Shown: positions 16,809 to 20,738 of the stretch, one piece after another | How positions within the stretch are numbered: position 1 is the first letter of the stretch | Layout: every line of letters starts with the position of its first letter | Assembly (NCBI RefSeq): GCF_041435215.1 | Contig: NZ_CP108394.1 | Coordinates: 6,820,001-6,884,000 of the forward strand | DNA: 64,000 nucleotides | Source: Streptomyces sp. NBC_01314 | GTDB lineage: Bacteria; Actinomycetota; Actinomycetes; Streptomycetales; Streptomycetaceae | Direction: 5' to 3' | Program-made: the position numbers and the translations under genes | Notes under the pieces: generated by a model | The model's database searches: none | Told to the model about the DNA's origin: nothing | What the model saw: the letters and a program-made list of their open reading frames with translations, nothing else

Positions 16809-18227
16809 TCACCGCACCTCGATGAACGCCCCCGCATCCCGCTCACCCCGCGCCGGAGGCGCACCCGAGGCGTGCCCCACAGCGACCGCCCCCATCGGAT
16901 CCCACCCCTCCGGCAGCCCCAGCACCCCCCGCACGACATCCCGGCAGAACATCGTCGAGGACACCCACGCCGACCCCAGCCGCTCCCCGGCCAGCGCGAC
17001 GAGGAAGTTCTGCACGCCGGCCCCGGCCGCGACCACGAACATCTCCCGCTCGGCCGCGTCCCGCCGCGCGTCCCCGTAGGAGTGCGCCCCGTCCATCACC
17101 AGACACGGCACCACCAGATACGGCGCGGCACGCAGCACGTCCCCGCGCCGCACCCGCTTCGCGATGGACTCCTCGCTCTTGCCGTCCCGCCGCAGGTCCG
17201 CGATCCACGCGTCCCTCATGGCGTCGAGCAGCCGCACCCGCGACTCCTCCGACTCCAGCAGCACGAACCGCCACGGCGTCGTGTGATGAGGCGCCGGCGC
17301 GGTCACGGCGGCGGCCACGGCCCGCCGCACCGCCCCGGGGTCGACCGGCTCGTCCGTGAACGCCCGGACCGTACGCCGCTGGGTCACCGCCAGCCGTACG
17401 GCCTCGGAGGTGCCGAGCCGGAACATGTCGTCCCGCGCCCCCCGGACCAGGGCCTCGGTCCCCTCGCCGTCGTCCGCGGCCACGACATGCCCCAGCCCGC
17501 GTACGACGGCGACGGGCAGCCCGGCGGCCTTGCCCTTCACCAGGTCGCCGGCGCCGGCCAGCTCGTCGGCGGTGGCGACGACCGTCGCGCTGAGCGGATT
17601 GCCGTGCGCGTCGGTGCCGCCCCGCAGGTCGTCGAGGACGCGCACGCCGGCCGCTCCGATGGCGACGTCCGTCAGCCCGCTGCGCCAGGGTCGCCCGAAC
17701 GTGTCGGTGACGACGACCCCGACCTCGACGCCGAGCGTGTCCCTGATGCCGTTTCGGATCGCCCGCGCGGAGGCGTCGGGGTCCTCGGGCAGCAACAGCA
17801 CGGTCCCGGAGGGTGTGTTGGAGGCGTCGACCCCGGCGGCGGCCATGACGAGCCCCTGCCGGTTCTCCACGATCCGCAACGCCCCGCGCCGGGCCACCAC
17901 CCGTACGGTCTCGGCGTCGATCGCGGCCTCCCGGTCGACCGCCTCGACGATTCGCCCCTCCGCCTTGGACACGATCTTCGAGGTGACGAGCAACACGTCC
18001 CCGTCGACCAGCCCCGGCCCGGCCGCGGAGATCAGCTTGGCGAGGTCGTCCCCCTCCCGCACCTCGGGGATGCCGGTCAGGGCCCAGACCCGGTACCCGG
18101 GGCCGGGCCCGCCGCCCGAAGCGGGGCCTGCGGCGGTCAGGGACCCGGCGGGAGCCGACTCCTCGCCCGCCGTCACCCCCTCGCCGGTAGCCGTCGTATC
18201 CCTGAAGTCTCCGAACTCCCCGCTCAC
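16809..18227 (-). CDS. fbiB: Bifunctional coenzyme F420 synthase: F420-0:gamma-glutamyl ligase plus nitroreductase-like domain
   Basis: 472 residues. After a variable Gly/Ala head, the ligase domain (about 45-290) starts [18 protein letters not shown] and includes [28 protein letters not shown] and [12 protein letters not shown], all typical of CofE/FbiB. The C-terminal flavin-type domain (about 295-472) has [13 protein letters not shown] and a [12 protein letters not shown] segment. FbiB adds the oligoglutamate tail, and in mycobacteria its second domain reduces dehydro-F420-0. The GTG start overlaps the fbiA stop (GTGA), so the two are translationally coupled. The acyl-CoA dehydrogenase and other enzymes elsewhere in the cell may use F420; nothing here shows which. 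Confidence 0.94.
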
Positions 18228-19183
18228 GCTCCCCGTACCTCCTCCGCCAGTGCCAGCGCCTCGCGGGCCATCGTCGCCGTCGCGTCCAGGTCGGTCATCA
18301 TCAGCGGCACGGCCCGGCACCGGATCCCGGCGGTCTCGACACGCTCGACGACGCCCGCGTCGACGGTGTCGACGAGCCAGCCGTCGAGCAGCCCCGAGCC
18401 GTAGTGCTCGGCGACGGCCGCGGCGGTGGACTCGACGCCGACGGCGGCGAGGACCTTGTCCGCCATACCGCGCACGGGCGCGTCGCCGACGATGGGGGAG
18501 AGGCCCACGACCGGCACCCCGGCCTCGGCGATCGCCTCCCGGATTCCGGGCACGGCGAGGATGGTGCCGACGGAGACGACGGGGTTGGACGGCGGGAAGA
18601 GAATCACGTCCGCCTCGGCGATGGCCTCCAGGACCCCGGGCGCCGGCTTCGACTGCTCGGCGCCGACCGGCACGATCGCCTCGGCCGGCACGGAGGCCCG
18701 CAGCCGCACCCAGTACTCCTGGAAGTGGATCGCTCTGCGCTCACCGTCCTGCTCGACGGCGACATGGGTCTCGACGCGGTCGTCGGTCATCGGGATGAGC
18801 CGCACGCCCGGCTTCCACCGGTCGCACAGCGCCTCCGTGACCGCGCTCAGCGGAAACCCGGCACTGATCATCTGCGTCCGCACGATGTGCGTGGCGAAGT
18901 CCCGGTCGCCGAGGCCGAACCACTCGGGCCCGACGCCGTACGCGGCGAGTTCCTCCTTGAGGTGGAAGGTCTCGTCGGCCCGGCCCCAGCCCTGCTCCTC
19001 GTTGATGCCGTCGCCAAGCGTGTACATCACCGTGTCGAGGTCCGGGCAGACCTTCAGCCCGAAGAGGTGGATGTCGTCCCCGGTGTTGCCGACGACCGTG
19101 ATGTCCGCGTCCGGCACGGCCAGCTTCAGACCGCGCAGGAACCGGGCACCACCGATGCCGCCTGCCAGAACCACAATGCGCAT
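18224..19183 (-). CDS. fbiA: 2-phospho-L-lactate/phosphoenolpyruvyl transferase of F420 biosynthesis (CofD/FbiA)
   Basis: 319 residues, the usual length. It begins [19 protein letters not shown] with the Gly-rich loop that binds the guanylated donor. It continues with VVGNTGDD and the [15 protein letters not shown] segment typical of the family. FbiA moves the phospho-lactyl or phosphoenolpyruvyl group from the GDP-linked donor to Fo, giving (dehydro-)F420-0. The ATG at 19183 matches the conserved N-terminus. It lies 73 bases downstream of the cysteine dioxygenase gene on the same strand and overlaps fbiB by 4 bases. I see no clear promoter in the 73-base gap, so all three may share a transcript. 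Confidence 0.95.
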
Positions 19184-19256
19184 GGAAGCAGTCTCGCAGG
19201 CGGGTACGACAACGGGTCGCCCACCCGCGACCACGGCCGGTTTCCCACGGTCCCGG

Positions 19257-19754
19257 TCAGGCCGTGACGGTCGCCGCCCCCGCCGCGCAGGCCTTCGCGT
19301 GCATCGGCATGTCCGTCAGACCCGGGTAGTAGACGTGCAGACTGATGGCCGGTTCCAGCGTGTCGTTGACGACCTCGTGGGCGTAACCCGGCGCGAAGAC
19401 GCGCTGCGCGCCCGCGCCGAGCACGCGCGTGCCCCGGTCGGTGCGCTCGGTCAGCGTGCCGTCGAGCACCGTCAGTACGCCGGAGGAGCCCCCGTGGTCG
19501 TGCAGCCCGGTGCCCTGACCCGGCACCCACGACAGCAGCCACACCTCGTACCCGGGACCGGTCAGCAGCCGGTGGTACCAGCGCGTGGTCGCGTCGTACT
19601 CGACGAGGTGCTCCCACCGGGAGCGGTCGTCGGCGAGGGAACGGGCCAGTCCGGCGAACTCGGCCACGGTGACCGGGTGTTGGCGCGGCGCCTGGAGGAG
19701 GTGCGGTACTTCGAGAAGGTCGCCGGCGATCTGGAGGTCGCTGTCGCTGTTCAT
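19257..19754 (-). CDS. Cysteine dioxygenase family protein
   Basis: 165-residue cupin that oxidises L-cysteine to cysteine sulfinate with non-haem iron. The metal ligands are visible: H85 and H87 in GLHDHGGSSG, and H126 in PGYAHEV. HVYYP (140-144) provides the conserved Tyr region. Size and motifs fit bacterial type I Cdo. The ATG at 19754 has only a weak, partly self-complementary ribosome site (GAGGACCTC). Upstream lies a cysteine-rich leader ORF with two hairpins in between, which suggests regulation by charged Cys-tRNA. The stop is 73 bases before fbiA. Confidence 0.9.
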   Translation of the reverse strand: MNSDSDLQIAGDLLEVPHLLQAPRQHPVTVAEFAGLARSLADDRSRWEHLVEYDATTRWYHRLLTGPGYEVWLLSWVPGQGTGLHDHGGSSGVLTVLDGTLTERTDRGTRVLGAGAQRVFAPGYAHEVVNDTLEPAISLHVYYPGLTDMPMHAKACAAGAATVTA

Positions 19755-19812
19755 GAAGTGGGGAGGTCCTCGACGGAGAGTGCGTGGGGGAGGGCGGGGT
19801 GTCACGTGCCGT

Positions 19813-19852
19813 CCGCCCGGGTCGCGGGCGGGGCGGATGCCCGGTTCCGGGC
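19813..19852 (-). promoter_or_regulatory. Candidate attenuator hairpins between the Cys leader and cysteine dioxygenase
   Basis: Two stems lie in the 155-base gap. CCGCCCG (19813-19819) pairs with CGGGCGG (19825-19831), and GCCCG (19839-19843) pairs with CGGGC (19848-19852). They are in the right place for a transcriptional or translational switch governed by a ribosome on the leader ORF. Alternative pairings were not computed. Confidence 0.5.
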
Positions 19853-19909
19853 CAAGGGGAACGGCGGCCGAGCCGGGAGGGGCTCAGTGGCAGCCGGAGC
19901 GCGTGAGGC

Positions 19910-20002
19910 TCAACAGCTGGAACAGCGACAGCTACAGCGACAGTGAGCAGCACCGAGGGACCCGGCGGAGCGGGTCGAGGTGAGTGCCAAGTTCGCGAGC
20001 AT
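19910..20002 (-). CDS. Cysteine-rich leader peptide upstream of cysteine dioxygenase
   Basis: A 30-codon ORF reading MLANLALTSTRSAGSLGAAH and then CRCSCRCSSC before TGA. Five Cys codons, all TGT, fall in the last ten codons, which is extreme for chance. The ATG at 20002 lies 7 bases after a candidate -10 box (TGTGCT at 20015-20010) and 17 more bases from a perfect TTGACA (20038-20033), so the mRNA probably begins at the ATG itself (leaderless). Poly-cysteine leaderless short ORFs are known in mycobacteria as cysteine-responsive attenuators of sulfur genes. This one precedes cysteine dioxygenase by 155 bases. The peptide itself need not have a function; ribosome progress would be the signal. 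Confidence 0.8.
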   Translation of the reverse strand: MLANLALTSTRSAGSLGAAHCRCSCRCSSC

Positions 20003-20009
20003 GCCCACA

Positions 20010-20038
20010 AGCACAGCGGTTCATACCTTCGCTGTCAA
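20010..20038 (-). promoter_or_regulatory. Promoter of the Cys leader / cysteine dioxygenase / fbiAB unit
   Basis: On the minus strand TTGACA (20038-20033) and TGTGCT (20015-20010) are 17 bases apart. The expected start, 7 bases downstream, is the A of the leader ATG at 20002. The -35 box is consensus; the -10 box has G for A at the second position. Confidence 0.6.
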
Positions 20039-20185
20039 CTTCACGTCCGGTATGTGGATGCCGGTTCACCTCTTTCGGTGCATCCGCGCGGCGAAAGGTT
20101 TGTGCGTGGGGTGTCGGGGAGACATGGCGTCCAACCGGGCAAGCCGTCGGCACGCGCGCGTGGAGCGTCGAGGGTGCGTCCGGAG

Positions 20186-20197
20186 CGAGTCGACTCG
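20186..20197. promoter_or_regulatory. Perfect 12-base palindrome upstream of whiB
   Basis: CGAGTCGACTCG is fully self-complementary. It is followed by GAACGAGTCGGAACGAGATC, which repeats the CGAGTCG half. It could bind a regulator of whiB or of the divergent unit; no protein is implied by the sequence alone. Confidence 0.35.
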
Positions 20198-20371
20198 AAC
20201 GAGTCGGAACGAGATCGAACTCCTGGGCGTCCTCTCCCGTAAGGGAAGGAGAACCCCCTCCGGAACTCCCGCCTGCCGTCAGGCTGCTGTCAGGGTTTAT
20301 GCCGATTTGAACACTTTCCGCATAGCCTTGGTTCCGCAGAGTGAATAAGGGGCTCAATAGCAGATCTCGGC

Positions 20372-20401
20372 TTGACTCGCCCGTAGCAGCACACTTGTAA
20401 T
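20372..20401 (+). promoter_or_regulatory. whiB: Candidate whiB promoter
   Basis: TTGACT (20372-20377) and TGTAAT (20396-20401) are separated by 18 bases, a fair match to the housekeeping sigma consensus. They lie about 75 bases before the whiB ATG. whiB of S. coelicolor is known to have more than one promoter, so others may exist upstream. Confidence 0.5.
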
Positions 20402-20474
20402 TTCACTCGTGTCGTTCAGCCGAAATCGGTAACGGCCGCACGACGGGGACGCGAAAGACGGACGAGGGGCGCAC

Positions 20475-20738
20475 ATGACCGAGCTCGTGCAGCAACTGCT
20501 GGTCGACGACGCGGACGAAGAACTCGGCTGGCAGGAGCGCGCGCTGTGCGCCCAGACCGATCCCGAGTCCTTCTTCCCCGAGAAGGGCGGCTCGACCCGC
20601 GAGGCCAAGAAGGTCTGTCTCGCCTGCGAGGTCCGCTCCGAATGCCTTGAGTACGCCCTCGCCAACGACGAGCGGTTCGGTATCTGGGGCGGCCTGTCGG
20701 AGCGCGAACGCCGCCGCCTCAAGAAGGCAGCGGTCTGA
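20475..20738 (+). CDS. whiB: WhiB developmental transcription factor, iron-sulfur protein
   Basis: 87 residues. It matches the S. coelicolor sporulation regulator WhiB as I remember it. Four Cys (25, 48, 51, 57, with the CxxC at 48-51) bind a [4Fe-4S] cluster. The GIWGG turn is followed by a basic tail, ERERRRLKKAA, which contacts DNA. WhiB acts together with WhiA to switch aerial hyphae from growth to sporulation septation. The ATG at 20475 has GAGGGG about 7 bases upstream. In M. tuberculosis the orthologue whiB2 is also next to fbiA. It is transcribed away from the cysteine dioxygenase unit. Confidence 0.97.
   Translation: MTELVQQLLVDDADEELGWQERALCAQTDPESFFPEKGGSTREAKKVCLACEVRSECLEYALANDERFGIWGGLSERERRRLKKAAV

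Follow-up and report, generated by a model that had tools for sequence, protein, structure and literature searches.

What is a run of cysteine codons doing in front of a gene whose product degrades cysteine? The window, by which we mean the whole stretch of 64,000 nucleotides of Streptomyces DNA that was analysed, contains a gene for a cysteine dioxygenase (CDO), whose product matched cysteine dioxygenases in a comparison with the PDB (best E 1.8e-9), and upstream of it a short ORF that ends in such a run (Table 1). A sequence-only reading of this DNA had proposed that the ORF is a leaderless leader controlling CDO, and we compared the region across Streptomyces and beyond, and modelled the leader RNA.

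Table 1. Features of the CDO leader region and its neighbours (window positions)
Feature	Position	Strand	Basis or remark
cofE	16809-18320		after cofD; Pfam F420_ligase, Nitroreductase
cofD	18224-19183	minus	Pfam CofD; downstream of CDO
CDO, presumed controlled gene	19257-19754	minus	Pfam CDO_I, 68 bits (cut-off 23)
Target of the arm, GAACAGCGACAGC (G of the CDO AUG and codons 2-5)	19740-19752	minus	MFE fold, duplex scans
Weak Shine-Dalgarno candidate GAGGA, 12 nt before the CDO ATG	19767-19771	minus	sequence
Cys tract, TGT CGC TGT AGC TGT CGC TGT TCC AGC TGT TGA	19910-19942	minus	sequence
Putative sequestering arm GCTGTCGCTGTTC, inside the Cys tract	19920-19932	minus	MFE fold, sliding duplex, synonymous recoding (p 0.01)
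Hairpin inside the leader ORF, GACCCG/CGGGTC	19959-19976	minus	MFE fold
Leader ORF, 30 codons	20002-19910	minus	ATG at the predicted +1, stop TGA; equivalents in 136/147 Streptomyces CDO loci
-10-like hexamer TGTGCT	20015-20010	minus	sequence; T(-8) in 136/136; no match in generic promoter scan
-35 hexamer TTGACA of the leader promoter	20038-20033	minus	sequence; TTGAC conserved in relatives
whiB	20475-20738	plus	Pfam Whib; divergent neighbour of the leader

A cysteine-rich leader ORF upstream of CDO

The ORF itself was confirmed from the sequence, including the five TGT codons that had been claimed for its last ten positions: its translation is MLANLALTSTRSAGSLGAAHCRCSCRCSSC, and TGT stands at codons 21, 23, 25, 27 and 30. 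Such an ending is rare in the window. Among the 1455 stop codons on both strands that have ten open codons ahead of them, at least three Cys in the last ten codons were found at 15, at least four at 3 and at least five at 1, and this single stop was that of the CDO leader, which was also the only one preceded by at least three TGT codons. Elsewhere in the same genome, the flanks of 3 sulfite reductase and 18 PALP-family matches contained no poly-Cys leader with at least four Cys and a usable start; these flanks had two Cys-rich stretches (L205 and L215), and no stretch with at least three Cys was seen on the one strand read at the main sulfite reductase (L204).

For the comparison within the genus, 150 Streptomyces genomes were searched, all of which had some match to the CDO protein, and 147 loci with a close match were analysed (G008, G010 and G050 had no close CDO match and were left out). 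An in-frame, ATG-started ORF of 28-40 codons with a Cys-rich end, and with TTGAC 36-37 nt before the ATG, was present at 136 of the 147 loci. These leaders have three to seven Cys within the last ten codons, they all stop with TGA (136/136), and the last codon is Cys in 133 of 136. The expectation that the Cys codons are kept across Streptomyces was borne out, since 140 of the 147 loci have, upstream of CDO and on its strand, a stop whose ten preceding codons include three or more Cys, vs 1 of 147 on the reverse strand. The 11 loci without a countable leader comprise four with a leader outside the length limits (L136 and L137, 19 codons; L143 and L144, 49 codons), all with TTGAC 36-37 nt before the ATG, six without a leader, and L045, in which the leader promoter and ATG persist and most of the Cys codons now encode Arg, a natural loss of the sensor. 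In a second set, partly overlapping the 147, the leader was present at all of the 80 best named Streptomyces CDO loci, including those of S. europaeiscabiei, which has the nearest CDO (99%), and S. violaceoruber (L323), a close relative of laboratory strains such as S. coelicolor and S. lividans.

The leaders fall into two main sequence types, MLANLALTSTRTAGSHGAARARCSCCCCSSC-like and MPATSAPLATHxRGFRSAVQARCCCCCSSC-like, and the sequence ahead of the tract differs between groups. In this part of the leader, all three codon positions are conserved to much the same degree, with no excess of change at the third position, and therefore its translation has no substitution signature. The Cys positions shift even among close relatives, such as the window and L265.

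The surroundings of the leader are also shared among the loci. A WhiB match lies beside CDO in 146 of 147 loci, and GAGGA occurs within 25 nt 5' of CDO in 116 of 122. The spacer between leader and CDO ranges from 42 to 477 nt and is C-rich in the sequences viewed. The downstream cofD may be co-transcribed with CDO.

Promoter and predicted leaderless start

In the window, TTGACA is followed after 17 nt by TGTGCT and, after a further 7 nt, by the ATG at 20002. The same register was conserved in the 136 leaders, which read TTGAC(A), a 17- or 18-nt spacer, a TNTCCT-like hexamer, 7 nt and ATG, with C at -1 in 99% and T at -8 in all of them. The -10-like hexamer was TGTCCT in 57 loci and TCTCCT in 48, together 105 of 136, and the form of the window, TGTGCT, was found in 5. 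Because a TTGAC at 32-42 nt before the ATG was required for a leader locus to be counted, its presence holds by construction and only the tightness of the register is evidence: the distance from TTGAC to the leader ATG was 36 nt in 93 loci and 37 nt in 43 of the 136 counted, and other TTGAC within 70 nt 5' of the ATG occurred nine times at 8 and once at 60. From this register, we infer that the transcript starts on or beside the A of the leader ATG, and the comparison supports a promoter spacing of the kind expected of a leaderless mRNA for the poly-Cys ORF before CDO. The placement of the ORF at the predicted +1 of a TTGACA promoter thus stood as far as the 36/37-nt register is concerned, but a generic sigma-70 scan returned no promoter at the leader. 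This is explained by the scan, which demands an A at position 2 of the -10 element, a base that TGTGCT does not have. The combination of a TTGAC(A) -35 element with a -10-like hexamer without the usual A at this position possibly points to another sigma factor or to an activator.

Complementarity between the Cys tract and the CDO start

The MFE fold of the window's own locus (L001) contains a long-range helix, absent from the sequence-only reading, in which 13 contiguous pairs join 19932-19920 in the Cys tract with 19752-19740 at the start of CDO. The main form of the tract is 5'-GCUGUYGCUGUUC and its partner at the CDO start, consisting of the G of AUG and codons 2-5, is 5'-GAACAGCRACAGC. Pairing statistics were computed for the 122 of 136 leader loci in which ATGAAC lies no more than 6 nt from the aligned start, a choice that favours a complementary start; the other 14 leader loci have best runs of only 7-10 pairs. 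When the tract was slid along 21-nt segments of the RNA, a sharp minimum was found at CDO +1 to +21 (mean -22.9 kcal/mol, n=122), which was on average the best partner. Segments starting at -140 to -14 gave means of -7.0 to -11.9 kcal/mol. Inside CDO, the mean was -14.3 kcal/mol for the segment at +21 (n=122), and values deeper in the gene, scored in only about 30 loci, reached -15.6. The contiguous run between tract and start reached at least 11 pairs in 100 of 122 loci and was 3-10 pairs long in 22. Of the 102 loci whose run is 11 pairs or longer, 101 have 2-4 whole Cys codons in the arm.

The leader and this form of the CDO start occur together. A CDO start of the form RTG-AACAGC was found at 130 of 136 loci with a leader vs 1 of 7 without, the single one being L045 with its degenerate leader. 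Ten loci have a CDO start located upstream of the aligned one, and nine of these still read ATGAACAGC, L087 being the one that does not; the ten have similar leaders and are probably one clade. When tracts and starts were swapped between species as a test of covariation, native and swapped pairs did not differ in their pairing; since tract and start are both nearly invariant, the helix has no strong support from covariation.

The choice of synonymous codons in the tract gives a further indication. TGT and TGC occur in a ratio of 526 : 136 over the final ten positions of the 136 leaders, vs 86 : 495 in whiB and the part of CDO examined at the same loci. The preference depends on position, with TGT in 107/111 cases at -6, 123/127 at -4 and 131/133 at -1, and TGC in 60/65 at -5; TGT at -6 and -4 with TGC at -5 fits the partner ACA-GCG-ACA, which in the main layout lies opposite -6 to -4. 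With the peptide held fixed, 101 of 122 loci had a native tract that paired better (p<=0.05) than recodings drawn from host codon usage, with means of -23.4 vs -16.5, and the p value for the window's own locus was 0.01. The result depends on the codon model and on the side recoded, with p<=0.05 in only 60 of 122 loci under uniform codon choice and in 39 of 122 when the CDO side was recoded instead of the tract. In 127 of 136 leaders, the native tract also paired better than 20 shuffles of its codons did on average. Taken together, these comparisons indicate that synonymous codon choice in the tract favours pairing with the CDO start.

Other RNA structures were considered as well. Two hairpins had been placed between the leader and CDO by the sequence-only reading. 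The MFE fold does contain hairpins there, but a scan for intrinsic terminators (a hairpin followed by a U-run) gave 0 sites in 19700-20480. The lack of such a terminator favours control at the level of translation. No match to any of 4227 Rfam models was obtained at E<=1 in 19000-20700. A hairpin inside the ORF (Table 1), which may perhaps cause pausing, has a counterpart in the other sequence group (67 rows) in which two pairs are changed on both sides (A-U 34 / G-C 19 and C-G 51 / U-A 15). Within the window's own group, only two pairs of this hairpin are in the consensus and they hardly vary. The hairpin may explain part of the leader conservation before the tract. A second helix, between the 5' end of the leader and the tract, had 7-8 pairs in 50 of 136 loci; it was dropped because the synonymous test gave p<=0.05 in only 12/67 and 6/69 loci.

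CDO loci outside Streptomyces

Among 40 CDO loci from other genera of the family, 38 have three or more Cys within the ten codons ahead of a stop, vs 2 of 40 on the reverse strand. Pairing of the tract with the CDO start region reached p<0.05 in only 5 of 39 loci tested in other genera (with CDO starts picked by a Shine-Dalgarno rule, and L153 and L349 left out). Pairing with the start is thus mostly not significant outside Streptomyces, which suggests that the Cys codons are more widely kept than the actuator based on pairing. In one other genus, 4 of 7 tested loci have a tract that pairs over 11 nt with GACGACACAGC, located 2 nt before a GTG start (p 0.01-0.04). In L355 and L353, both from a single other genus in the family, the tract could form a helix with a GCGAC-rich box lying some 70 nt ahead of the probable CDO start; this helix was the best in L355, the second best in L353 and not seen in L357, and the actuator may differ there.

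Beyond the family, 29 genomes had matches to distant CDO homologues, and 20 of the upstream regions were read. The leader in L244 resembles the Cys-rich leader family NF042936 (Ms4527A; 36.7 bits, below the cut-off of 45), L233 has a leader ending in GGRCCRCC before the stop, and L237 and L240 have a five-codon ORF, MRCCC, followed directly by a stop. Reading of the remaining 16 regions gave no clear poly-Cys leader. At several distant loci (upstream regions L237, L240 and L244, with L257, L260 and L264 as the wider regions), the next ORF looks by eye like a rhodanese. The presence of short Cys leaders of other types at distant CDO genes suggests that such leaders may have been gained, or retained, in front of CDO on more than one occasion.

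Predicted direction of control

It is very likely, on the evidence of the comparisons above, that the poly-Cys leader controls CDO by sensing cysteine decoding. The question is then in which direction. In the mechanism that we favour, transcription would start at the A of the leader AUG, and ribosomes would load on the leaderless ORF and then read the Cys tract. When Cys-tRNA is ample, they would finish and leave, the tract would pair with the CDO start and block initiation, and CDO would be low. When Cys-tRNA is short, a ribosome would wait with a Cys codon in its A site, its footprint would cover the arm, and the CDO start would be open, with CDO expression high. Because the arm is made of the Cys codons themselves, it is precisely a ribosome stalled on them that would expose the start. 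We give a probability of roughly 0.65 to this reading, in which the leader acts as a cysteine-sensing translational attenuator that turns CDO on when Cys-tRNA is short.

Stalling was modelled by setting a ribosome footprint unpaired on the leader-CDO RNA of the 122 loci and computing the cost of opening the CDO start. The mean cost was 19.3 kcal/mol without a ribosome and 19.4 with a ribosome early in the leader, and with the ribosome further along it was 12.8 when the first Cys codon was in the A site, 11.7 for the second, 14.1 for the last and 15.9 for the stop codon. With the first Cys codon in the A site, 116 of 122 loci showed a decrease of more than 1 kcal/mol, and with the second 119 did. 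For the window's own sequence, the cost fell little from 21.9 kcal/mol when the ribosome stood at the first Cys codon (18.7) and more when it stood at the second (12.2). Since the modelled costs fall at the Cys codons, stalling there is predicted to uncover CDO, and this speaks against the proposal of the sequence-only reading that low cysteine turns the gene off.

The opposite direction nevertheless has to be weighed, because CDO consumes cysteine, so that its induction by cysteine shortage is unexpected and seems to make no physiological sense for an enzyme of catabolism. Under the reversed logic, abundant cysteine would turn CDO on, as ribosomes that pass quickly and repeatedly, and that dwell at the TGT codons and UGA, would prevent the tract from pairing; under starvation they would fail upstream or queue, and the 3' part of the arm would re-pair. 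This would fit the expected role of the enzyme, and in animals high cysteine activates CDO, according to the abstract of PMC10942545. The model also lends it something: with a ribosome at the stop, the start becomes cheaper to open in 94 of 122 loci (mean -3.5), and in the window the arm begins 10 nt after the start of the first Cys codon, so that a stall at this codon masks it poorly. However, stalls at the first and second Cys codons open the start more (-6.6 and -7.7, 122 loci) than a ribosome at the stop does, and an arm that holds whole Cys codons is the classical layout of derepression by stalling. On balance, we consider the reversed logic unlikely, though a serious candidate.

TnaC is a precedent for control of a catabolic operon by a leader peptide. 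In a mechanism of this kind, the ribosome would be held, either by its Cys-rich nascent peptide or because it terminates slowly at UGA, and Rho would be blocked in the C-rich spacer, so that control would be exerted on transcription termination. The invariant UGA, the Cys that nearly always precedes it and the C-rich spacers would all suit such a mechanism, and Rho has been proposed to act at mycobacterial cys leaders, as stated in the portion of PMC1262725 at hand. The codon positions ahead of the tract, however, have no signature of a conserved peptide, and the pairing of the tract with the CDO start would be left unexplained, which makes this mechanism improbable. It is more improbable still that the ORF encodes a small Cys-rich protein with a job of its own, such as metal or redox binding, with the pairing as a by-product. 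A Cys-rich C-terminus is indeed kept at most of the family loci read, but the sequence before the tract varies between groups without a third-position excess, the Cys positions shift among close relatives, and the codon choice is biased towards pairing. A chance ORF in a conserved intergenic region, for which one could cite the empty promoter scan, is hardly credible, and the comparison across loci already contradicts it, given the strand counts in Streptomyces (140 vs 1 of 147) and in the other genera (38 vs 2 of 40) and the rarity of such an ending in the window.

If the leader works by derepression as we favour, a paradox follows, since the anatomy of an exact and testable RNA pairing predicts that a cysteine-consuming enzyme is induced by cysteine shortage. 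Either the predicted direction is wrong in vivo, or CDO does something else. Derepression by shortage hints that the enzyme serves a purpose other than the disposal of excess cysteine, such as freeing sulfur from a different thiol, or some redox function. Whether CDO, turned on at Cys-tRNA shortage through an arm of sensor codons on its AUG and codons 2-5, in fact belongs to a cysteine-starvation response of this type (sulfur from other thiols, or redox) is in our judgement evenly balanced. In any event, either the role of the enzyme or the usual reading of such leaders would need revision.

Comparison with known cysteine leaders

Leaderless poly-cysteine ORFs are said to have been described as attenuators in mycobacteria by Canestrari et al. 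in 2020. At mycobacterial cysteine genes, pairing between the upstream ORF and the downstream region is relieved by stalling, as given in the part of PMC13236596 that was available, and cysteine leaders are also reported there before cysA2 and other genes (PMC4633059 and PMC9094748, both in excerpt). Leader peptides with a Cys run have also been described before cys operons in Mycobacterium and P. acnes and before cbs in B. longum (Seliverstov 2005, PMC1262725, in the sections at hand). Similar to the CDO leader, these are short ORFs with a Cys run near the stop and no conserved terminator hairpin. In contrast to it, they precede cys operons or cbs, not CDO, and none is reported for Streptomyces in those sections.

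For Streptomyces, eight leader peptides have been listed in S. lividans TK24 (two Leu, two Trp, and one each for Ala, Ile, Met and Thr), according to the available part of PMC8079986. Like the CDO leader as predicted here, they are mostly leaderless and several are without a clear terminator; unlike it, none in that part of the source lies before CDO, and none is termed cysteine-dependent. The metNIQ leader of this set, published as methionine-dependent, ends in RCMCRRMCAF, as given in the same part of the source, and with its three Cys may respond to cysteine. When three Streptomyces CDO leaders were scanned, 0 families were returned at E<=10, so that they match neither NF042936 (Ms4527A), which the distant L244 leader resembles, nor NF042934 (putative leader peptide). 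A literature search at the level of listed records and selected passages found no cysteine leader before CDO in Streptomyces, and a prior description is possible.

The closest likeness is thus to the mycobacterial poly-Cys attenuators, in which a short ORF with Cys codons, leaderless there and predicted to be so here, likewise precedes a gene of cysteine metabolism, and in which pairing is reported to be relieved by stalling, as the model predicts for CDO. Two features of the mycobacterial type were found at the Streptomyces CDO loci, namely a Cys run just before the stop and a tract able to base-pair with the start of the gene that follows. The differences are that the target here degrades cysteine, and so belongs to cysteine metabolism but not to its supply, that the lineage is another one, and that the arm is directed at the CDO AUG and codons 2-5. 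From these likenesses in sequence, the CDO leader would appear to work like the mycobacterial switch with a different target, lineage and arm, which would carry attenuation by cysteine codons beyond the mycobacterial cysteine genes to an enzyme that degrades cysteine, across Streptomyces.
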